Shown: in pieces, positions 37,875-53,363 of the stretch
How positions within the stretch are numbered: the first letter of the stretch is position 1
Layout of the letters: every line of letters begins with the position of its first letter
Origin: Egibacteraceae bacterium
GTDB lineage: Bacteria > Actinomycetota > Nitriliruptoria > Euzebyales > Egibacteraceae
Assembly (NCBI GenBank): GCA_035540635.1
Contig: DATLGH010000107.1
Location: forward strand, 1-54,642
Direction: 5' to 3'
DNA length: 54,642 nucleotides
Position numbers and translations under genes: made by a program
Notes under the pieces: generated by a model
Told to the model about the DNA's origin: nothing
The model's database searches: none
Seen by the model: the letters and a program-made list of their open reading frames with translations, nothing else

Positions 37875-37945
37875 GCGGGTGTAGTTCAATGGTAGAACAC
37901 GAGCTTCCCAAGCTCGCAATGGGGGTTCGATTCCCCTCACCCGCT
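37875..37945 (+). tRNA. tRNA-Gly, anticodon CCC
   Basis: A 71-nt cloverleaf: acceptor GCGGGTG pairs with CACCCGC (37938-37944); D arm GTTC/GAAC; anticodon stem CGAGC/GCTCG with loop TTCCCAA, so the anticodon is CCC at 37907-37909; T arm GGGGG/CCCCT with TTCGATT. The discriminator base is T; CCA is not encoded (CTC follows). It is a frequent integration site for mobile elements and marks the left edge of the accessory island here. Confidence 0.96.
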
Positions 37946-37952
37946 CTCCACA

Positions 37953-41288: not shown

Positions 41289-42503
41289 TCAGCCTTGAGC
41301 GAAACGGAAGGGCCTGAGGAACTGTGAAGCCGGAGCGGCGTACTCGTATACGTCGTAGCCCTCGTCTACGAGCCGAAGTATCTGGTCCTCGTCGCGCAAC
41401 TCGTCGGCGACCCGCTGATGGTCGCCCAGGCAACCGTCTGGACCCGTAAAGAGGACGACGTTCAGACCGTCCTGCCATTGGGCCGACCGGAAGGCAATCC
41501 CATCGACAGGCGCCTCTGGGAGCGGGACCCTGAAGCGCATGTACTCGGTGAAGATCTGGGTGGGGGTGTACTCAAAGTGCACCCGGTCGTCCCGCGCAAT
41601 CGGTCGCGAGATTTCGCGAGCGAATCCAGCCAGGAACCCCAGGAGATGCACGCGCTGTGCGTCGTCCGGGTTGAACACGCTCGCGGTCGGCAGGTCTGCC
41701 AGGTCAACGATGTCGAGCGGGCGGAGCGTCTCGAAGGCCGCCACGGCGGCGTATCGCCGGCCGTCAAAGACCTCTGCGGCCGCGGTCTGCGGATCCGTAG
41801 CGCCGTAAAACATGGAGATCCCTGCAGGGTTCATCCGTCCCTGCCGCGCCTTCTCAGGTGGGGGCGCCGCCAACTCATGCGCGTGATCGAAAGGAGTGTC
41901 CTCGAACGCTCGTGCTCGGTACACCAGCTTGCCGGCCGGCCACTGTGTCACGCAGAACTCATCCACCACCTTCGCGAGTTTCTCCAGCATCTGACCAGGC
42001 GCCCAACCGCTGTCAAGCGCCTCTTCGGAGGAGCCATCATCCGGCGCCAAGAGGAAGCGGCTTCGGTGCTTGACATGCTCGACGAATCGCCTCCAGCCAG
42101 CCGTCAGCATTCCTCCCGGGGGAAGGAAGGGATCTCCCCTGTGGACCCAGGCCTCGTCATGGAAGAGGGGAGGCAGCGCTTCTGCGACTTCGTCGTCGAA
42201 GCCCCCGTCAGAGACAAGTTCGGCGACCACGTCCCATGTGTCCATGGTCGCGGAGGTCCAGCCGCCTTCCCATCCGACACCCGCGTTGCTTGCGGTTTCA
42301 TAATGCAGCAGCAAACCGACCTCCACGGCCTCCAGGAGTTCATCAAGCGGAGCGCCGTCCTGTTCACCGCAGAAGGAGCATGTGTCTCCGTCCTCGGTGG
42401 CTTGCAGGAGCAAGTCGGCGACAAACAAGTCCTCCACGTGCCGGCTGCATACTCGCCGGTCTTCAGGATCGGGCGTATACCAGGAGTCATCTACGTCGCC
42501 CAA
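41289..42503 (-). CDS. RES-domain protein with HEPN/RES N-terminal domain
   Basis: 404 residues from TTG at 42503, with GAGAAGGG 5 bases upstream (longer starts lack coding character). N-terminal domain with DRRVCSRHVEDLF and GDTCSFCGEQDGAPLDELLE (zinc-type Cys) as in RES N-terminal units. The C-terminal RES domain has LVYRARAF, GRMNPAGISMFYGATDPQTA, IFTEYMRFRVPLP and DGIAFRSAQWQDGLN, holding the Arg, Glu and Ser that name it. RES toxins degrade NAD+ in toxin-antitoxin pairs. No Xre/ResA-type antitoxin is adjacent, so it may act alone or with the HTH protein upstream. GC-content and codon use look less biased than neighbours. Confidence 0.8.
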   Translation of the reverse strand: MGDVDDSWYTPDPEDRRVCSRHVEDLFVADLLLQATEDGDTCSFCGEQDGAPLDELLEAVEVGLLLHYETASNAGVGWEGGWTSATMDTWDVVAELVSDGGFDDEVAEALPPLFHDEAWVHRGDPFLPPGGMLTAGWRRFVEHVKHRSRFLLAPDDGSSEEALDSGWAPGQMLEKLAKVVDEFCVTQWPAGKLVYRARAFEDTPFDHAHELAAPPPEKARQGRMNPAGISMFYGATDPQTAAAEVFDGRRYAAVAAFETLRPLDIVDLADLPTASVFNPDDAQRVHLLGFLAGFAREISRPIARDDRVHFEYTPTQIFTEYMRFRVPLPEAPVDGIAFRSAQWQDGLNVVLFTGPDGCLGDHQRVADELRDEDQILRLVDEGYDVYEYAAPASQFLRPFRFAQG

Positions 42504-42749
42504 CGTGCCCTTCTCCCAGTTCGTTGGGACCGAACGCCCCGATCGTAGGCGTGACGTGGTAGGCGGGCTCGCCGCCACTTCTTCCTGCGATGCGCTCGTC
42601 GGCCGCGGTGAGGCCACCGCCGCCGATCTGCGCGAGCCGGACGACCCAAGCACCTGTTGTCGACACTTGTCCCGGGTCCTGACCAGCCGGCAGGCCAAAG
42701 CACAGTCCCACTGCCCCAGCGGGCTGGTCAGCGAGCACGCCGACCGCAG

Positions 42750-43211
42750 TCAGTCGTTGAGCGTGCTGGGAGCCAAGAACTGGGCCAGCGCTTCTGCTTG
42801 CAGCTGGACGACGGCATTCAGGTCGCGCGCAACGGCTTTCAGCTGCTCGACCTCGCCGCGCAACCGTGCGACTTCCGTCTCCAGGTCCGTCTGCGACTGA
42901 ACCGGCCTGTCGGGCCCGGCCGCCGAAGGCCTCGTCTTCTCGGGGTTCCGAGGCGTGCGAGCTTCGCCGGGCAGCAGCCCGTCCTCGTCGACCGGGACAT
43001 ACCACCGCGGCCGCCTGCCAGGCGGCATCTCCTCCCCCTCGATCGTCCCGTCGCGGAGTTGCAGGCGAAGCTTCTCAACGCTGATGTCCAGCAGCCTGGC
43101 GGCATCCCTTGCCGTGAAGCCCGGCGCGCCGCTGGGGCATCGCACCTCGCCACGTCGCGCGTCTGGGTGCGGCCTGCCAGTCAGCGGGTGTGGGCTATCG
43201 ATGCGGGTCAT
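42750..43211 (-). CDS. Helix-turn-helix protein with coiled coil
   Basis: 153 residues from ATG at 43211. A MerR/excisionase-type helix-turn-helix (FTARDAARLLDISVEKLRLQ, RRPRWYVPVDEDGLL) is followed by a linker and a coiled coil (DLETEVARLRGEVEQLKAVA). An ATG at 43256 would add 15 residues and overlaps the CCGTATGGT site, which would then be autoregulatory. 246 bp separate it from the RES gene. Could be the regulator or antitoxin for that gene. Confidence 0.65.
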   Translation of the reverse strand: MTRIDSPHPLTGRPHPDARRGEVRCPSGAPGFTARDAARLLDISVEKLRLQLRDGTIEGEEMPPGRRPRWYVPVDEDGLLPGEARTPRNPEKTRPSAAGPDRPVQSQTDLETEVARLRGEVEQLKAVARDLNAVVQLQAEALAQFLAPSTLND

Positions 43212-43251
43212 GGTGAGAGCCGAGTTGCCGCAGGGGAGCAGTCCGAACGGC

Positions 43252-43260
43252 ACCATACGG
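43252..43260 (-). promoter_or_regulatory. CCGTATGGT site 2
   Basis: On the minus strand TATACCGTATGGTGCC, at the upstream edge of the HTH gene and 64 bp before the divergent gene at 43324. Here it is placed as an operator for one or both. Flanking TACCG...CGGTA (43299-43315) also forms an inverted repeat. Confidence 0.4.
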
Positions 43261-43323: not shown

Positions 43324-43785
43324 GTGGCCTCACGTGTGGCATTGACCGCCGGCGCGCTCTGTTCCGTCGCTGTGCTCCGGCTTCCGCACCGCTCGATGCC
43401 TCGCTCGACGTGGGCTGGCGAGATCCTCGTGGAGCAGATGGCTCGGGCGTCGCGCCGCCGTGCGGGCACGTCGCCCGGCTTCGAGCGCGCCCTCCGACAG
43501 CTACGAACCAGCGCCGGACAGGTCGACCGGCGGGCCTTAGCCGCGACGATCGACGCCCTCGTCCTTCGTGGGACCCTCGAGCCGCACGGCATCGGCCGTG
43601 ACGCGCGCCTCCGGGTGAGTGAAGCGGCTGCCCCCGCGGTTGCGGCAATCTCGGAGGTGCTCAGCCCCGCAGACGTGCGTGTGTTGCGGTCCGCTGGTCA
43701 GCGGGCGCACGCGATCTGGTCGGCTTGGTCGAACACCGCCGCCGCATCCGCCGAGTACAGGTCCTCGACGTCCGTGTCGGGTTGA
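43324..43785 (+). CDS. Unknown island protein, possible winged helix
   Basis: 153 residues from GTG at 43324. The centre (RALAATIDALVLRGTLEPHG, IGRDARLRVSEAAAPAVAAI) resembles a small winged-helix unit. Divergent from the HTH gene. Its last 88 bp overlap the 3' end of the kinase on the other strand, more than expected, so its C-terminus may be read-through. No family recognised. Confidence 0.4.
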   Translation: MASRVALTAGALCSVAVLRLPHRSMPRSTWAGEILVEQMARASRRRAGTSPGFERALRQLRTSAGQVDRRALAATIDALVLRGTLEPHGIGRDARLRVSEAAAPAVAAISEVLSPADVRVLRSAGQRAHAIWSAWSNTAAASAEYRSSTSVSG

Positions 43786-44804
43786 GCCCGTCGCCACGCG
43801 GACCGGTAGGCAAGGACGCTCAGCCGGATCTTCCCCGAGCGCATCGTCCTGGACTCGACCGCGATCCGGCGGTCCGGCTGATGCAGATACGGCGCCTCCC
43901 AACGGTTGTCGGCGATCTGCTTCCAGTCGATCACTCGAACGTTGGCCAACGCGGCGCTCATGTGCCGGGCGGTCGGGTATCGCTGGCCGGGGTGACGCGC
44001 GGTTGCCTTGGTGATGACTCGCTTCAGGCCTCTGGGAACCCAAGGTGGTAGTTGCCGGTCGACCGTTCGCAGCGGACTGACGCCCGGCATGAGGCGGCTC
44101 ACGATGTGCGTGCGCGTGCACGAGTGGTAGGGGAAGGGTTCGCGCACCAGTTCGACAAAGACGAGCCCGAGGGAGAACAGGTCGGACTGCCTGGTCAGGT
44201 AGCCGTCGGCCACGAGTTCCGGTGGCGAGTACAGCTGCGGGTTGTCGATCATCGCGACTCGGCCCTGTGGATCCATGCGGCCCGCGAGTCCGAGATCGCC
44301 GACCTTGAGGAGCGTGTGGTCGTCGGCCAGTAGCAGGTTCGAGCTCTTGATGTCGCGGTGAACGACCTGGTGCCGCTCATGGATCTCGCCGAGTCCCCGA
44401 AGCGCGGCCTGGATGAGCTGACACGCCTCCCTCATGCTGAACCGCTCGCCCCTGAGCATCGCGTCGGTCAGGCTCCCCCGGGGGTGATGGGGCATGACGA
44501 TCTCGACGACGTCCATGGGGCTGGGGTAGCCGTCGACGCGTGCAGCGCTGAGAATCGGCACGACGTTGTCGTGGGTGATCTGCTGGAGGATCTGCGGCTC
44601 GATGAGGACCTCCGACTCCAGCAACGAGAGGTCCATCCGCTTGCCGGCGAACTCGCCGCCTGTGACGTTGTCCAGCCACGTTCGGACCTCGCGAAGCTGA
44701 CCGGGGAGCGACTCGAGGCACTCGAAGTCGAGTCGGAGCAGCCGCTCAGATGCCCGCTCAGGGCGTTGGCCATCCCCGCCAGCGGCTGACGCTGGCGCTG
44801 GCAC
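43698..44804 (-). CDS. Protein kinase-like protein of the island
   Basis: 368 residues from GTG at 44804, which shares one base with the upstream TAG. Kinase core: ESEVLIEPQILQQITHDNVV (C-helix Glu), VEIVMPHHPRGSLTDAM (hinge), VVHRDIKSSNLLLADD (catalytic loop with Asp, Lys, Asn), KVGDLGLAGRM (DLG instead of DFG), SPPELVADGYL. No clear glycine loop precedes. The C-terminal 110 residues are unlike known kinases (WKQIADNRWEAPYLHQPDRR, SGKIRLSVLAYRSAWRR), a possible target-binding domain. No membrane helix, so cytosolic. Last gene of a four-gene coupled set. Confidence 0.8.
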   Translation of the reverse strand: MPAPASAAGGDGQRPERASERLLRLDFECLESLPGQLREVRTWLDNVTGGEFAGKRMDLSLLESEVLIEPQILQQITHDNVVPILSAARVDGYPSPMDVVEIVMPHHPRGSLTDAMLRGERFSMREACQLIQAALRGLGEIHERHQVVHRDIKSSNLLLADDHTLLKVGDLGLAGRMDPQGRVAMIDNPQLYSPPELVADGYLTRQSDLFSLGLVFVELVREPFPYHSCTRTHIVSRLMPGVSPLRTVDRQLPPWVPRGLKRVITKATARHPGQRYPTARHMSAALANVRVIDWKQIADNRWEAPYLHQPDRRIAVESRTMRSGKIRLSVLAYRSAWRRAQPDTDVEDLYSADAAAVFDQADQIACAR

Positions 44805-45304
44805 TAGCTTGCCTCCCTCTCGGCGGTCTCCTCCAGGAGCGTGAGCGCACACGCGAACGCGGCGGCCCGCCCAGCGCGCCACCCCACGGGTGTTCCGGTC
44901 AGCCCCGCCGCGGATGGCGCGAGCGTCTCGAGCTGGTAGGCCGGGAGTTTCACCGCTCGCGCGATGTCCTCGGTCTTGATCTCCCTGAACGGCATCTGCT
45001 CGAGCTCGCAGGCGAGCATCACGGCAGCGACCAGCGAGATGCGGTCGAAGGCGTGACGGTACTGCCAGTTGGCGTATCGGCGAGTGGCCACGAGCCCGAC
45101 GGCAGTCGGGGCGACAGACCGCAGATCCTGGCGGTACCGGGACTGGAACTCGGCGAGACGAGCAGAGTCGGTGCCTCCCTCGGAGGGGGCAAGATCGGTG
45201 GGCGCCTCCTCGACCGCGCGGCCGTCCTCGGCGCTGTTGCTCTCGACGACGCCGTAGAACAGCTTCCCGTTAGCGACCGCAAGGCCCAAGACGCGCATGT
45301 TCAT
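44804..45304 (-). CDS. RuvC/RNase H-fold-like protein coupled to the kinase
   Basis: 166 residues from ATG at 45304, chosen because its ATG overlaps the preceding stop by one base (TGATG). It starts with strand RVLGLAVANGKLFYGVVES, typical of a RuvC or RNase H first strand although the first acidic residue is not evident. VAPTAVGLVATRRYANWQ and REIKTEDIARAVKLPAY resemble the later strand/helix pattern of RuvC-like folds. An alternative ATG lies 11 codons upstream. Whether nuclease residues are kept needs a structural model. Confidence 0.55.
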   Translation of the reverse strand: MNMRVLGLAVANGKLFYGVVESNSAEDGRAVEEAPTDLAPSEGGTDSARLAEFQSRYRQDLRSVAPTAVGLVATRRYANWQYRHAFDRISLVAAVMLACELEQMPFREIKTEDIARAVKLPAYQLETLAPSAAGLTGTPVGWRAGRAAAFACALTLLEETAEREAS

Positions 45305-45585
45305 CAACCGCCCCAGCGTGACTCCGTTCGCGGCCATGGTAGCCAGAGGTGGCGGAACCCGGCTGTCTCCTGCGCCGTTCGTGGGCCCGCAGCGGGCGCG
45401 ACGCCCCGGCCGGCGAGCAGTCCGGCGCCGGCGTCGACGGCAGCGGCGAGGTCCTCGTAGCGCCACACCCGCCTGCGGATCTCCAGCGCCGGCCACGCCA
45501 GCCAGGGCTCGGCCGCCTGGCATTGCAGCTCGGCGAGCGTGCGCGGGGGCGAAGGGGCAGACAGCTGGCGGTTCTTGGCGCGCAC
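45304..45585 (-). CDS. Small protein (93 aa) of unknown function in the kinase operon
   Basis: From GTG at 45585 (AGGAG just upstream). It contains PSPPRTLAELQCQAAEPWLA, RRRVWRYEDLAAAVDAGAG and ends with a Trp-rich tail (HLWLPWPRTESRWGG). It lies 13 bp after the TenA-like stop and overlaps the RuvC-like start by one base. No family recognised. Confidence 0.5.
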   Translation of the reverse strand: MRAKNRQLSAPSPPRTLAELQCQAAEPWLAWPALEIRRRVWRYEDLAAAVDAGAGLLAGRGVAPAAGPRTAQETAGFRHLWLPWPRTESRWGG

Positions 45586-45598
45586 GTCTCCTGCGGCG

Positions 45599-46227
45599 TC
45601 AAGCCGCCGATCCCGCTTGGTCGAAGAAGCCGTACTCGAGCAGCATGGCCCGGTGGTCGTGCTGCGCGACGGCGTGGCTGCCGTCGTCGTGGGCGTCCAG
45701 CAGCGCCTCCATCCGCTGCGCCAGCGCTCGAAGTCCTCGTCGGCGTATGTGGTGACCCACTCGCGGTAGGGGCTGTCGGCGGCGGTATGGGCCTCAAGCC
45801 CCTGACCCAGGTGGGCGTACAGCCGCATGCACGGCGTCATCGCCGCGAGGATGTGGCCGACGGGCTCGCTCCAGGCGACGCGCAGCAGGAAGTCGGTGTA
45901 GGCCAGCGTGGCTGCGGCGGGTTCAGGGTCCAGGCGCGCACCCCACCTTTGCGCGTACGACTGGTGCAGCCGCAACTCGTCGTCCACTCCTTCGAGTAGG
46001 ACACGGATCTCCGCCATGGCCTCCCGGTCCGGTGCCTTCGCGAGCGCCAGGGCATACGCGCGGGCGAAGCCGTCGAGGAAGAAGGCGTCCTGCTCGACGT
46101 AGAACACGAACCGGTCGCGTGGCAGGTCACCAAGCGCGATGCCCTGCACGAACGGGGGACGCAGGCATGCCGCGGCGAGCTCGGCGTTGTCCTTCCACAG
46201 CACGGCAGCGGGGCTCAAGGCGCTCAC
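45599..46227 (-). pseudogene. TenA-family (thiaminase II-like) protein, frameshifted near the C-terminus
   Basis: GTG at 46227 (GAGG upstream) opens SALSPAAVLWKDNAELAAAC, then PPFVQGIALGDLPRDRFVFY, VEQDAFFLDGFARAYALALA, HQSYAQRWGARLDPEPAA and RLYAHLGQGLEAHTAADSPY. These match the TenA/THI-4 fold with its conserved aromatic and Glu residues. Near 45733 the frame shifts; the continuation is RMEALLDAHDDGSHAVAQHD and LEYGFFDQAGSAA, ending at TGA 45599-45601. One indel only, so it may be functional if the sequence is in error. TenA proteins salvage thiamine pyrimidines, but here a regulatory or scaffold use is possible. Confidence 0.7.
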
Positions 46228-46256
46228 ACATCCTCGGTGGTTCTTCCACCGGCGCG

Positions 46257-46265
46257 CCGTATGGT
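46257..46265 (+). promoter_or_regulatory. CCGTATGGT site 3
   Basis: Lies in the 125-bp divergent region between the TenA-like gene and parA, in GCGCCGTATGGTGCGCC, which is itself nearly palindromic (GCGCC...GTGCGCC). Partition operons are often autoregulated by binding at the promoter, which fits this site. Confidence 0.45.
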
Positions 46266-46352
46266 GCGCCACATGTCCCACCGGGGCGCTTGTCTGGCGG
46301 CATGACCGATGGCGCGCCCGCTGGCCTGCCACACCGAAGCCAGGGAGGCGTC

Positions 46353-47240
46353 GTGCTCGACAACTGCGTCGCTGTCGTCAACGGGAAGGGTGGCGTCGGC
46401 AAGACCTCGATCGTCGCCAACGTGGCCGCCACCGCCGCCCTCGGGGGCTGGCGGACGCTCGCGGTCGATCTCGACCCGCAGGGCAACCTCGCCCGCGACC
46501 TGGGCTACCGCGATCGCAGCGACGAGGGCCGCGGGCTGCTCGAGGCCGTCATGACGGCCACGCCGGCGCGGCCCATGACCGGGGTGCGCCCCGGTCTCGA
46601 CGTGATCACGGGTGGCCGGCACACCCGACGCCTCGGGGATCTGCTCGTCGTCCAGGCCCTCGGCCAGCAGCCCGCCGTCGACTACCACCTCGAGCCGGCG
46701 CTCGCCGCCGTCGCCGGCCGCTACGACCTCGTCCTCCTCGACTGCCCGCCCGCGAGCAACCTGCTCGTCCGCGCCGCTCTCGCCCTCGCCGGCCACGCGG
46801 TCATCCCCACCAAGATCGACGACGCCAGCATCGACGGGCTCGAAGGCCTCGCCGACGTGCTCGGCGAGGTCGTGCGTACCGCCAACCCGCAGCTGCGCGT
46901 CCTCGGCGTGGTGCTGTTCGACGTGGGCGCCGGCGACACCCGCCTGCAGGCCGAGGCCCGCCGCGAGCTCGAGGAGATGCTCGACGGCATCGCCCCCGTC
47001 CTTCGCGCGGCGATCCGCCACACCCGCCGCGCCGCCCGCGACCTGCGCCGCCGCGGGAGCACCGCCGCCGAGTACGAGCAGGCGGCCCTGGACGCCAAGC
47101 CCTGGTACGCCGACCGGGCCGCCCCGGCGCTGTCCCGCGCGGCGGGCGGCCTGGCCGGCGACTACCAACAGCTGACCACCGAGATCCTGGCCGCCCTGTG
47201 CGCCCGCGCGGCCGGCCAGATCGCCGAGGTGACGCCGTGA
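46353..47240 (+). CDS. parA: ParA-family partition ATPase
   Basis: 295 residues from GTG at 46353, chosen for AGGGAGG 4 bases upstream; ATG at 46302 is the alternative. Deviant Walker A VVNGKGGVGKTSIVANVAAT with both lysines, Walker A' LAVDLDPQGNLARDLGY, Walker B YDLVLLDCPPASNLLVRAAL, and IPTKIDDASIDGLEGLADVL. It sits in front of a ribbon-helix-helix partner with a four-base overlap, like plasmid type Ib partition pairs. Provides stable inheritance of the island when excised. Confidence 0.92.
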   Translation: MLDNCVAVVNGKGGVGKTSIVANVAATAALGGWRTLAVDLDPQGNLARDLGYRDRSDEGRGLLEAVMTATPARPMTGVRPGLDVITGGRHTRRLGDLLVVQALGQQPAVDYHLEPALAAVAGRYDLVLLDCPPASNLLVRAALALAGHAVIPTKIDDASIDGLEGLADVLGEVVRTANPQLRVLGVVLFDVGAGDTRLQAEARRELEEMLDGIAPVLRAAIRHTRRAARDLRRRGSTAAEYEQAALDAKPWYADRAAPALSRAAGGLAGDYQQLTTEILAALCARAAGQIAEVTP

Positions 47241-49078: not shown

Positions 49079-49102
49079 TGGCATCGCGCGGAGGCCCCGC
49101 CG

Positions 49103-49920
49103 ATGAGCGTGACGGAGCAGCTGCCAAGCCTGGCGGGCGCGCGCGACACGGCACCGCCGCAGCAGGCCAGCCCGGCACGGGTGCGGCGGCGCCGGCCGGG
49201 CAGCGTGCTCGCGCTGATGCTGGTCGCCGGGCTGCTGCTGGGGCTGGCCACCTACATGGTGCTGCGCGACCGGGACGTCACCTACCGGGTCGCGGTCGCC
49301 GCGACCGACCTGCGCGCCGGCACGGTCGTCTCCGCCGACTCGTTCCGGCTGGTCGACACGAAGGTCGCTGATCAACTGGCCGCCGGCCTGGTGCACGCCG
49401 ACCACGTCGCCGGGGTCACCGGCTGGGTCGCCGCCAACACCGTGGCAGCGGCGAGCTCGTGTCGCGCGGTGACCTGCGCCCGCCCTCGGCGCCAAGCGAG
49501 TTCCGCGCCATGAGCCTGCCCATCGACCGCGAGCGCGCCGCCGGCGGCGATCTGGCGCGCGGTGACCGCGTCGACGTCGTCGCGGTGGTGGAGGGCCGGG
49601 CGCTGTACGTCGCCGCCGACCTCGAGGTGCTGGCCGTCGCGAGCAGCCGCGGCGACGGGGCGCTCGCGGCACCGGGACGGTTCTTCGTCACCGTCGCCGT
49701 CGACGAGCCCACCGCGCTGGCGCTGGCCCGGGCGCTGGAGATCGGCACCGTCAGCGTGCTGCGGTCCACCGGGTCGCTGCCGGCAACCGTCGACCCCGAC
49801 GCCCTGCGCGGCCTCAGCGACCAGCCGGGTCCCCGCGTGTCCCGGGACCCGCCGGCGCAAGACCCGCCAGCCAATGGCCAGGCCGGCCACCCGCAGGAGG
49901 GAGGCGACGATGCCGGGTGA
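49103..49920 (+). pseudogene. cpaB: CpaB/SAF-domain protein of the second Tad set, one frameshift
   Basis: ATG at 49103. N-terminal basic segment and membrane helix (VLALMLVAGLLLGLATYMVL), SAF start (VAVAATDLRAGTVVSADSFR, DHVAGVTGWVAANTVAA). Near 49447 the frame changes and continues ELVSRGDLRPPSAPSEFRAM, ERAAGGDLARGDRVDVVAVV, to TGA 49918-49920. One base seems missing in gcagcggcgagc. The two halves together match the intact copy at 22224-22973 in plan. Either a recent mutation or an error. Confidence 0.75.
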
Positions 49921-51154
49921 GGTCGCGGTCGTGGTCGCCGCGACACACCAGGAGTGGGCGACCCGGCTGACGGGCTGGATCAGCGACCACGGCAGCGAGG
50001 TGCGGCTGCGCGACCACTACGTCCTGGCCCGCGACGACGCGCTCGCCCAGGACTACGACTGCCTCGTCGCCGACGCCGACTCGTCGCTGCTCGACGCGGC
50101 CCTGGTCGCCGAGCTGCACCGCCGCGGCCGCACCGTCGTCGGCGTGTGCGACCCCGACCTGCCCCACACGCGCCGGCGGCTTACCGAGCTCGGCTGCGAC
50201 CGCGTCGTCGACAAGTCCGCACCGCCGGCCGAGCTGCTCGCCGCGGTCGCGGAGGTCGGTCGCAGCGCCCGCGACCTCGAGGGGCTGCTCGCCGGCCTCG
50301 TCGACCTGCCCGCCGACCACCCCGAGGCCCTGCCTGCCCCGCCCGGCCAGCACGCCGCGCAAGCCCGGCCAAGGCGCGGGCGGCTCACCGCCGTCACCGG
50401 CCCCGTCGACGGGCAAGGCGCCACCGAGGTCGCCGTCGAACTGGCCGTCGCGATCCGCCGGTGGGGACGCGGCGTCGTCCTCGTCGATGCCGACCTGTCC
50501 GCCTCGAGCCTCGCGCAGCGCCTCGGCGTCGGCTTCGACCGCAACCTGCACACCGCCGTCGACGCGGTCGTGCACCACAGCGGCACGCTGCCGAACGCGC
50601 TGACCGCCACTCCGGTGGGCGGCTTCGAGCTGCTCGCCGGCCTGCCGCCCCGCAAGTGGGCCGAGGTTGACGCGGGCGACCTCGCCGCCGTCCTCGACGA
50701 GTTGCTGCTCATGCGCCACCACGTGCTGTGCAACATCGCCGCGCCGGTCGAGGACCTGCCCGGCGACCGCAACGCCGTCACCCGCCGAGTGCTCGCCGAC
50801 GCCGACCGCATCGTCCTCGTCGCCGACGCCACTCCGACCGGCTGCGAGCGCGCGTGCCGCTGGCTCGCCGACGTCGCCGACCTCGTCGACGACCTCGCTC
50901 GCGTGCACGTGGTGTTCAACCGCTGCCGGCGTGGGGACGCCGCCGCCCAGCTGGAGGCCGAACTGCGCCGATGCGCCGAGATTGGCGGCGTCACGGCCGT
51001 GCCCTACGACCCGAAGGTCGTGCACGCCTGCTGGGCGGGCGAGGCGGTCGCCCCCGGCCGGTTCACGCGGGCGGTCGGCCAGCTCGCCGACGCCGTCGTC
51101 CTCCGCCAGGTCGCCCGCCGTCGCGGCCTGCTCGCCAGGGTGGCCGCTCAGTGA
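49910..51154 (+). CDS. cpaE: CpaE/TadZ-like ATPase of the second Tad set
   Basis: 414 residues from ATG at 49910 (AGGAGGGAGG upstream), overlapping the cpaB stop. Receiver-like domain (YDCLVADADSSLLDAALVAE) followed by a MinD-like domain with a degenerate P-loop (VTGPVDGQGATEVAVELAVA, no lysine) and VVLVDADLSASSLAQRLGVG. VVFNRCRRGDAAAQLEAEL is like the later part of ParA folds. No nucleotide hydrolysis is likely with this loop. A localisation factor. Confidence 0.8.
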   Translation: MPGEVAVVVAATHQEWATRLTGWISDHGSEVRLRDHYVLARDDALAQDYDCLVADADSSLLDAALVAELHRRGRTVVGVCDPDLPHTRRRLTELGCDRVVDKSAPPAELLAAVAEVGRSARDLEGLLAGLVDLPADHPEALPAPPGQHAAQARPRRGRLTAVTGPVDGQGATEVAVELAVAIRRWGRGVVLVDADLSASSLAQRLGVGFDRNLHTAVDAVVHHSGTLPNALTATPVGGFELLAGLPPRKWAEVDAGDLAAVLDELLLMRHHVLCNIAAPVEDLPGDRNAVTRRVLADADRIVLVADATPTGCERACRWLADVADLVDDLARVHVVFNRCRRGDAAAQLEAELRRCAEIGGVTAVPYDPKVVHACWAGEAVAPGRFTRAVGQLADAVVLRQVARRRGLLARVAAQ

Positions 51155-52464
51155 CCGCGTCCGGGAACGGGCAGCTCGCGCAGGCCTCGGCCTACGAGAC
51201 CGTCAAGGCCATGACGCTCAAGCGCGTCGAGGCCGGGGACATCGATCCGCAGGGCGACGCCGAGGCCGTGCGCGCCCAGATCGGGGAGGTCGTGCGGGCC
51301 TACCAGCGCGAGGCGCACCTCGACGACGCCCTCGTCGCGCTGGCCGACCCTGAGGCCATGGTCGCCCGGGTCATGGCCGCCGTGTGCGACTACGGGCCGC
51401 TGACCGGGCTCCTGCGCCGCGGCGACGTCGAGGAGGTCATGATCCAGGGCGCGCACCTGTCCTACATCACCGCCGACGGGCGCATCCACTTCCCCGCGCA
51501 GGCGGCCAGCGAGAGCGAGTACCGCCAGTACGTCGAGCGGCTGCTGCAGGCCACAGGCCGCCAGCTGGACGCCTCCACCCCGATCGTGGTCGCCGGCGTC
51601 GACGGGCACACCCGCCTGTCGGTCAAGATCCCCCCGGTCGCCGACGAGTTGACCGTGTGCATCCGCCGCCAGGTGCTGCGCCGCCCCACCCTGCGCGACC
51701 TGGTCGCCCAGGGATCATTGAGCCCGCCCGCCGCGGGGCTGCTGTGGGCGTGCATGCAGATCCGCTCCCGCGTCCTGGTCGCCGGCGCGCCGTTCGCCGG
51801 CAAGACCACCCTGCTCAACGCGCTGCTCGCCGCCATCCCCCCACACCGCGTGGTCCGGGTGAACGAGGAGGCCCGCGAGCTGTCCGCCCCGCTGATGCTC
51901 GGCGGGTACTGCCAGGCCAACGACCGGCCTGGCCAGACGCTGCGCGATCTCGTCCGCGCCGACCTCACCTTCCGCCCCGACATGCTCGTCGTCGGCGAGG
52001 TCAAGGGCGCCGAGGCCTACGAGGTCATCCGCCCGCTCAACGCCGGCTGCGGGTTCATGACCAGCGTCCACTGCAACGCCGCCGCCGACGCGATCGACGT
52101 GCTCACCGCCTGCGCCGCCATGGCCGGCGAGCGCATGGACCCCGACCTCATCCGCAGCCTGTTCGCCGGCGCGATCGACTTCGTCGTGTTCGTCGACGCC
52201 GACGAGGCCGCGCTGCGCGACCGCGACCGCGCCGCCCGCCGCCAGGTCACCGAGATCGCCTGGGTCGAGCCGCGGCTGCGCGGCGGCCAGGTTGTGCTCG
52301 AGCCGCTGTTCCGCCGCGAGGCGCTCGGCCGGCCGCTGGCGTGGACCGGCGCCCGGCCCGGCGAGGGCGTGGTCGCACGGCTCGACAAGGGCCTGGCCGC
52401 TGCCGGCGGGCTGACCGTCGACCGGATCCTCGCCGGCGACCAGGTCGTGGGGGCGCTGCGATGA
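51151..52464 (+). CDS. cpaF: CpaF/TadA-like ATPase of the second Tad set
   Basis: 437 residues from GTG at 51151 (GTGA overlap). YGPLTGLLRRGDVEEVMIQG, Walker A VAGAPFAGKTTLLNALLAAI, RVVRVNEEARELSAP (Asp-box region), RPDMLVVGEVKGAEAYEVIR (Walker B type) and GFMTSVHCNAAADAIDVL (His box). All functional motifs of a VirB11/GspE ATPase are intact. It differs substantially from the 19583-20926 copy, so it is an old paralogue or was acquired separately. Confidence 0.93.
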   Translation: MTASGNGQLAQASAYETVKAMTLKRVEAGDIDPQGDAEAVRAQIGEVVRAYQREAHLDDALVALADPEAMVARVMAAVCDYGPLTGLLRRGDVEEVMIQGAHLSYITADGRIHFPAQAASESEYRQYVERLLQATGRQLDASTPIVVAGVDGHTRLSVKIPPVADELTVCIRRQVLRRPTLRDLVAQGSLSPPAAGLLWACMQIRSRVLVAGAPFAGKTTLLNALLAAIPPHRVVRVNEEARELSAPLMLGGYCQANDRPGQTLRDLVRADLTFRPDMLVVGEVKGAEAYEVIRPLNAGCGFMTSVHCNAAADAIDVLTACAAMAGERMDPDLIRSLFAGAIDFVVFVDADEAALRDRDRAARRQVTEIAWVEPRLRGGQVVLEPLFRREALGRPLAWTGARPGEGVVARLDKGLAAAGGLTVDRILAGDQVVGALR

Positions 52465-53363
52465 GGCTCCTGGCCGCGGTGTGCGCCGCCTTCCTCGGCT
52501 TCGCCGGGATGGGCTGGCTGCTCGGCCACCCGGTGGCGCTGCGGGCGCCGCGGGTGCGGGCGCGGGGTGAGGGGTGGGCGCAGCGGCGGCAGCGCTGGCT
52601 GCGGCAGGCCGGCGCCCGCGTCACTCCGCTGCAGTTCTACGGCGCCTCGGCCGCCGCCGGGGCCGGCGCCTTCCTGCTGCTGTGGCTGGCCACGGGCGCG
52701 TGGGTCGTCGCGCTCGTGCCGGCGGCGCTGTGCGGGTTCGCGCCGCAGTTCTACTACACGGCCGCCCGCCGCCGGCGGGTCGCCGCGGTCAACCGGGCGT
52801 GGCCCGACGGGCTGCGCGACCTGGTCGCCAGCGTCCACCAGCAGCTGCCGCTGCACCAGGCCGTCCTCGAGCTGGCGCGCGGCGGGCCGGCGCCGCTGCG
52901 CCAGGCGTTCGCGCACTACCCGGTGCACGCCCGGGCGCTGGGGACCGTCGCCGCGCTCGAGCACGTCAAGGAGGAGCTCGCCGACCCCGCCAGCGACCGG
53001 GTGCTGGAGGTCCTCATCCTCGCCGCCGAGCGCGGCTCGGGCGGCGACCTGCTCGCCCGCCTCCTCGGCGACCTCGCCGAGTCGGTCACCGCCGACCTGC
53101 GCGTCGAGGAGGACATCGAGACCGCCCGCACCGAGCCGCGCATCAACATGGCCGTGGCCGCCGCGCTGCCGTGGCTGCTGCTGCTCGCCATGGTGCTCGG
53201 CGACACCCCCCAGCGCAGCTACTACACCTCCGGCCGAGGCCTCGGCCCGGTCCTGCTGGCGGCGGTGATGACATTCGCCGGCGTGGCGACGGTGCGGGCG
53301 CTGTCACGCGACCCGGTCGAGGCGCGGCTGTTCGTCGGCGAGGACGAGGCGGGCGCCCGGTGA
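52461..53363 (+). CDS. tadB: TadB-like platform protein of the second Tad set
   Basis: 300 residues from ATG at 52461 (ATGA overlap). One N-terminal helix, a helix pair near residue 65-95 (GASAAAGAGAFLLLWLATGA), F domain (GLRDLVASVHQQLPLHQAVL, ESVTADLRVEEDIETARTEP) and two C-terminal helices (MAVAAALPWLLLLAMVLG, VLLAAVMTFAGVATVRAL). Intact. Confidence 0.9.
   Translation: MRLLAAVCAAFLGFAGMGWLLGHPVALRAPRVRARGEGWAQRRQRWLRQAGARVTPLQFYGASAAAGAGAFLLLWLATGAWVVALVPAALCGFAPQFYYTAARRRRVAAVNRAWPDGLRDLVASVHQQLPLHQAVLELARGGPAPLRQAFAHYPVHARALGTVAALEHVKEELADPASDRVLEVLILAAERGSGGDLLARLLGDLAESVTADLRVEEDIETARTEPRINMAVAAALPWLLLLAMVLGDTPQRSYYTSGRGLGPVLLAAVMTFAGVATVRALSRDPVEARLFVGEDEAGAR

Follow-up and report, generated by a model that had tools for sequence, protein, structure and literature searches.

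A kinase and its RNase H-like partner in an Egibacteraceae contig: a candidate relative of the 933W Stk exclusion module

What would a bacterium, or an element that it carries, do with a gene pair that joins a protein resembling RuvC/RNase H to a eukaryotic-type protein kinase? The question is raised by a contig of an Egibacteraceae bacterium (DATLGH010000107.1), which we analysed as a single window of 54,642 bases, the whole contig, from a source genome of 3.46 Mb in 110 contigs. On its reverse strand, gene A (44804-45304; 166 aa, P0001) directly precedes the kinase gene B (43698-44804; 368 aa, P0002), and the stop codon of A and the start codon of B share one base (TAGTG at 44804). An initial annotation of this DNA had described A and B as a coupled pair and a candidate for defence or element control. 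That proposal has gained weight, since the pair occurs in different phyla and the best studied of its relatives, Stk of phage 933W, is an abortive-infection kinase. We favour, with moderate confidence and by analogy to 933W, the view that A and B are a divergent actinobacterial version of a Stk-type exclusion (abortive-infection) module carried by mobile elements.

Recurrence of the pair and its link to 933W Stk

The initial annotation had staked its proposal on the two genes being neighbours elsewhere, and they are: A lies just upstream of B in other Actinobacteria, on rhizobial plasmids, in the immunity regions of lambdoid prophages and in Bacillus SPbeta-like phages. A search with A alone among 396 genomes of the phylum gave matches in three (its own genome, G040 and G292); the G292 match falls within an 872-aa open frame, and we set it aside. 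In G040 the next open reading frame (ORF) downstream of A is a kinase, with a one-base overlap, and the A proteins are about 26-30% identical. When the G040 kinase was compared with plasmids (tblastn), Curtobacterium flaccumfaciens was prominent at 41%; here a 152-aa gene overlaps the kinase gene by one base. Two of 394 genomes matched a kinase profile at 1e-45. In G475 an A gene lies upstream of the kinase; in G632 the A gene is 39% identical to window A and the kinase is interrupted by a transposase gene. On a plasmid of Rhizobium BG6 a DUF3010 gene is joined to the kinase, and on a Mesorhizobium plasmid an A gene precedes it. The corresponding ORF before the kinase on an S. meliloti plasmid is cut by an insertion sequence (IS) and has no family match, so we regard this pair as tentative. 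The Mesorhizobium A protein matched plasmid records of Klebsiella, Providencia and E. coli at 41-44%. In E. coli, 223 of 5426 genomes have a match, and in 221 of these at least 80% of the A+B stretch is present. Within the group of the source genome the pair is accessory, being found in one of 61 relatives, the source genome itself.

Other searches had little to add. No relatives were returned from genome contigs (queries P0001 and A5), viral contigs (A1, P0007, A7 and P0024) or plasmids (P0001); P0006 gave one chance-level match against plasmids, and alignment A1 found G040 only among five genomes of its class. A 395-genome search (E up to 0.1) yielded, besides G040, weak partial matches in 15 genomes, which we took for noise. 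Kinase matches in Streptomyces, Rhodococcus, Actinomyces, Skermanella and Paraburkholderia have no A-like gene beside them as judged by position only (the upstream hypothetical ORFs were not profile-tested); upstream of a Variovorax kinase match is a 186-aa hypothetical protein, and a further kinase match, in Subdoligranulum, lies in a record that carries no annotation.

The coupling of the two genes is tight throughout. They overlap by 1 base in the window, G040, Curtobacterium and Rhizobium BG6, by 4 in Providencia and SPbetaL7, by 7 in E. coli and by 8 in Mesorhizobium, and a 4-base gap separates them in G475. A small upstream gene that overlaps an effector would also suit a toxin-antitoxin-like addiction pair, with B as a growth-stopping kinase and A as its neutralizer, and the IS insertions in the G632 kinase and in the tentative S. 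meliloti A-like gene fit this idea too; we consider it improbable. An IS interrupts the kinase gene in G632 and another lies ahead of it in S. meliloti; in K. variicola KV1 no kinase is annotated and IS genes come next. From these three cases, the module may be costly.

The neighbours of the pair across loci include integrases, TniQ and ATPase genes, DarTG-like and RES genes and, in lambdoid immunity regions, a repressor. In E. coli and Providencia a helix-turn-helix (HTH) or LexA-family regulator and a DUF3024 gene precede the pair, and replication genes together with CII-like or HTH genes lie opposite, a layout like that of a lambdoid immunity region. The E. coli kinase shares 99% identity with stk genes from records that carry the note 'immunity region; similar to bacteriophage 933W'; in three other records at 99% the gene beside the kinase is named 'RuvC-like Holliday junction resolvase'. 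According to two reports, 933W Stk is activated by HK97 infection and aborts that infection (PMC3564112, PMC3681748). This phenotype is the basis on which we propose an exclusion role for the pair. The same contexts could be read differently, with A and B regulating the mobile element that carries them (its lysogeny, transfer or maintenance) rather than acting against other phages, the kinase phosphorylating regulators of the element and A serving as substrate or anchor. The mostly mobile settings, the position behind the repressor of lambdoid prophages and the HTH- or ribbon-helix-helix (RHH)-like neighbours that vary between loci would all suit such a role. However, the phenotype of 933W Stk is exclusion of HK97, and the elements concerned are very different (Tn-like, SPbeta, lambdoid, plasmids), with no shared regulator seen; we judge element control unlikely.

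On the Curtobacterium plasmid, TniQ, an AAA ATPase and a further large gene adjoin the pair (L022:7956-12846), and this region is possibly cargo of a Tn5053/Tn7-like element.

The kinase and its partner

The assignment of B as a kinase holds. It matches Pkinase (Pfam, 6.9e-31) and PHROG 2361 (PHROGs, 1e-26), carries HRDIKSSN and DLG motifs, and its ATP-binding Lys can be recognized by eye, as expected of a eukaryotic-type kinase with an intact core. The domain ends in an IDW motif, followed by a tail of ∼ 75 aa. In a tree of ten A-partnered and seven other kinases (the G632 kinase fragment and the Klebsiella kinase were left out), the ten lie on one side of a branch and the seven on the other (support 90/86). 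The pairing label requires one change on this tree versus 5.6 in shuffles, and none of 500 shuffles was as low. A [DN]W motif closes the kinase domain in all ten A-partnered kinases (DW in nine, NW in one) and in none of the seven others at the aligned place; one of the latter, from Streptomyces, carries DW elsewhere.

The relationship of A to RuvC/RNase H-like proteins, which had been read directly from the sequence, is supported indirectly. The E. coli A protein matches PHROG 3875 ("RuvC-like Holliday junction resolvase") at 2.7e-90 and that of SPbetaL7 does so at 3.6e-22; the A protein of Rhizobium BG6 matches DUF3010 at 3.5e-26. RuvC-family matches of the G475 and E. coli A proteins are weak (E 0.04-0.05). 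Comparison by hhalign of five actinobacterial A proteins with six others (three enterobacterial, Mesorhizobium, BG6 and SPbetaL7; the S. meliloti ORF was left out) gave 88.7% and 84.3%, depending on direction, over about 91-93 columns, against 2.0% at most in 60 column shuffles. A PDB sequence search with P0024 returned chance matches only. For window A, it is the profile comparison with PHROG 3875/DUF3010-type partners that gives the RuvC/RNase H-like reading its indirect support.

RuvC resolvases bind metal through the motif-I Asp and further acidic ligands. Had A retained such a site, it could be an active nuclease with B as its switch. In favour of this are the DUF3010 match of the BG6 protein and the placement of DUF3010 in the RNase H-like superfamily, near the Holliday junction resolvases and with conserved active-site residues, in PMC3985635. 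In our alignment of ten A proteins (Klebsiella A and the S. meliloti ORF left out), however, the motif-I column reads A, C, Q, N, H, R, R, R, Q and R, with no acidic residue; window A holds A (Ala) at this place. The helix Glu is kept in eight of the ten but replaced by V in the window and by L in G632. At least the first of the active-site residues appears to have been lost from the paired proteins. As no protein of the ten has the motif-I Asp and, in the window copy, the helix Glu is missing too, we think that A is probably not a nuclease but a catalytically degenerate protein, in the window copy without a metal site. The initial annotation had proposed modelling of the RuvC-like protein to look for one; these alignments make one improbable in this copy, and we consider an active nuclease A with B as its switch very unlikely.

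Genes around the pair

Four of the actinobacterial loci retain a complete kinase gene, and at each of them its end is overlapped by a convergent ORF of about 150-160 aa. This ORF, C, encodes 153 aa in the window (43324-43785, forward strand) and overlaps the 3' end of B by 88 bases; the overlaps are 136 bases in G040, 85 in G475 and 106 in Curtobacterium. Antisense ORFs are common in GC-rich DNA. BLASTP supported three of the six pairs (window-G040, 4e-4; G040-Curtobacterium, 4e-6; G040-G475, 1.3e-5), and of three splits compared by profile, one gave 22.6% (0.8% in shuffles) and the other two no signal. On these results we regard C as a probable, not proven, third gene of the actinobacterial modules. 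The PLSDB gene table, itself incomplete, does not list the Curtobacterium C ORF (L022:6927-7385, reverse strand); on the same plasmid a 109-aa ORF (L022:7413-7742, forward strand) lies opposite an annotated hypothetical gene.

A further small gene accompanies these loci. By eye it is RHH-like in G040 and Curtobacterium, where the two proteins are 42% alike, and HTH/coiled-coil in the window and G475. The window gene at this position, D-like (42750-43256, reverse strand), has an HTH_17 match below the cut-off (E 0.013) and a coiled coil recognized by eye; its comparison with the G475 counterpart gave no BLAST match and no measurable kinship. C, and with it D, are probably extra regulators in Actinobacteria.

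We found no support for a module that extends upstream of A. A single operon of a TenA-like gene, a 93-aa ORF, A and B had been proposed, and the one-base overlap of the 93-aa ORF with A (TGATG at 45304), like that between A and B, is present as described. However, the reading frame of the TenA-like gene (45599-46227, reverse strand; PF03070 over residues 18-168) breaks near 45735, and the C-terminal part of the protein is encoded in another frame that ends at 45599; a pseudogene or an assembly error may account for this. The 93-aa ORF (45304-45585, reverse strand) is weakly similar to the N-terminus of acyl-CoA ligases (TIGR03205, E 0.016), of which it is probably a remnant, and its residues 14-68 are 43% identical to a 245-aa open frame adjoining a gene that is BioY-like by eye in G258. 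Neither gene was seen beside A at any other A-B locus inspected. For these three reasons we reject the four-gene operon and place both genes outside the module.

A RES-domain protein had been reported nearby, and its gene is indeed at 41289-42698 (reverse strand; Pfam HEPN_RES_NTD1, 3.5e-20, and RES, 4.4e-20). It is likely to be a toxin-type effector, and we treat it as a neighbour only. Integration at the tRNA-Gly gene (37875-37946) was considered and rejected, as no repeat of the tRNA of at least 14 bases occurs elsewhere in the window. A ParA-like ATPase is encoded at 46032-47240 (forward strand; AAA_31, 3e-26, Pfam), and the ORFs that follow it at about 49100-53363 (forward strand) resemble, by eye, a Tad/Flp pilus or secretion set.

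Proposed function and comparison with known systems

The best-known copy of the pair belongs to an E. coli prophage, and the kinase of that prophage blocks other phages. The window pair is therefore probably a distant anti-phage relative, and we infer that its kinase may act as 933W Stk does. In our model, A would bind B and/or an unusual nucleic acid or a phage protein, and this binding would keep B inactive. On entry of a foreign phage or element, one of the two proteins would sense a trigger, and B would then phosphorylate cell proteins so that the infected cell stops. The conserved A-B coupling is what suggests that A gates B, as its sensor or regulator.

Several observations weigh against this reading. 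Window A has no family match in NCBIfam, PADLOC or PHROGs and a single chance-level match in Pfam (E 0.31), and its structure model, built from the single sequence (mean predicted local distance difference test score, pLDDT, 52), is too poor to judge the fold. The branch that separates the A-partnered kinases is not strong, its support lying below the starred level, and the outgroup is small. The kinase tails of the actinobacterial and enterobacterial groups have no profile similarity (0.2-0.8%), which counts against a shared C-terminal domain. No repressor gene lies directly upstream of the window pair, where the ORF before A is the 93-aa remnant, and in Roseobacter and Salinivibrio relatives of DUF3010 occur without an adjoining kinase.

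A broader proposal, which we put forward tentatively, is a two-gene immunity family that crosses phyla, in which a dead RNase H/RuvC-fold sensor A releases a eukaryotic-type kinase. 933W Stk would be one branch, and the actinobacterial branch would add a convergent regulator. The trigger of A might then be branched phage DNA or a phage recombination protein. The pair stays together in Actinobacteria, Bacillus phages and E. coli prophages, and A is thus possibly the missing half of Stk-type sensing; if branched DNA is what it senses, a degraded nuclease fold would have been turned into an infection alarm.

The system had been called undescribed. This applies to the pair, for which our literature search, with most subscription journals outside it, found no paper describing it as a system; the kind of kinase is known from 933W. 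New are the spread of the pair and its degenerate partner. Among the defence kinases in PADLOC, PD-T4-6, Stk2 and MAD6 resemble B in the kinase domain only. DUF3010 (PF11215), RNase H-like according to PMC3985635, supplies the partner of the BG6 kinase, whereas window A has no PF11215 match above the Pfam cut-off and the Roseobacter and Salinivibrio genes stand without a kinase. The closest parallel is the 933W Stk locus, with its PHROG 2361 kinase and PHROG 3875 neighbour. The window differs from it in a kinase with HRD rather than HFD, a tail that cannot be aligned, an A protein that matches no PHROG family, PHROG 3875 included, and is linked to it by profile-profile comparison only, the lack of a repressor gene and the extra convergent gene C. 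It shares with that locus the order of A then B, their overlap, the kinase core, a profile-related A protein and a mobile-element setting.
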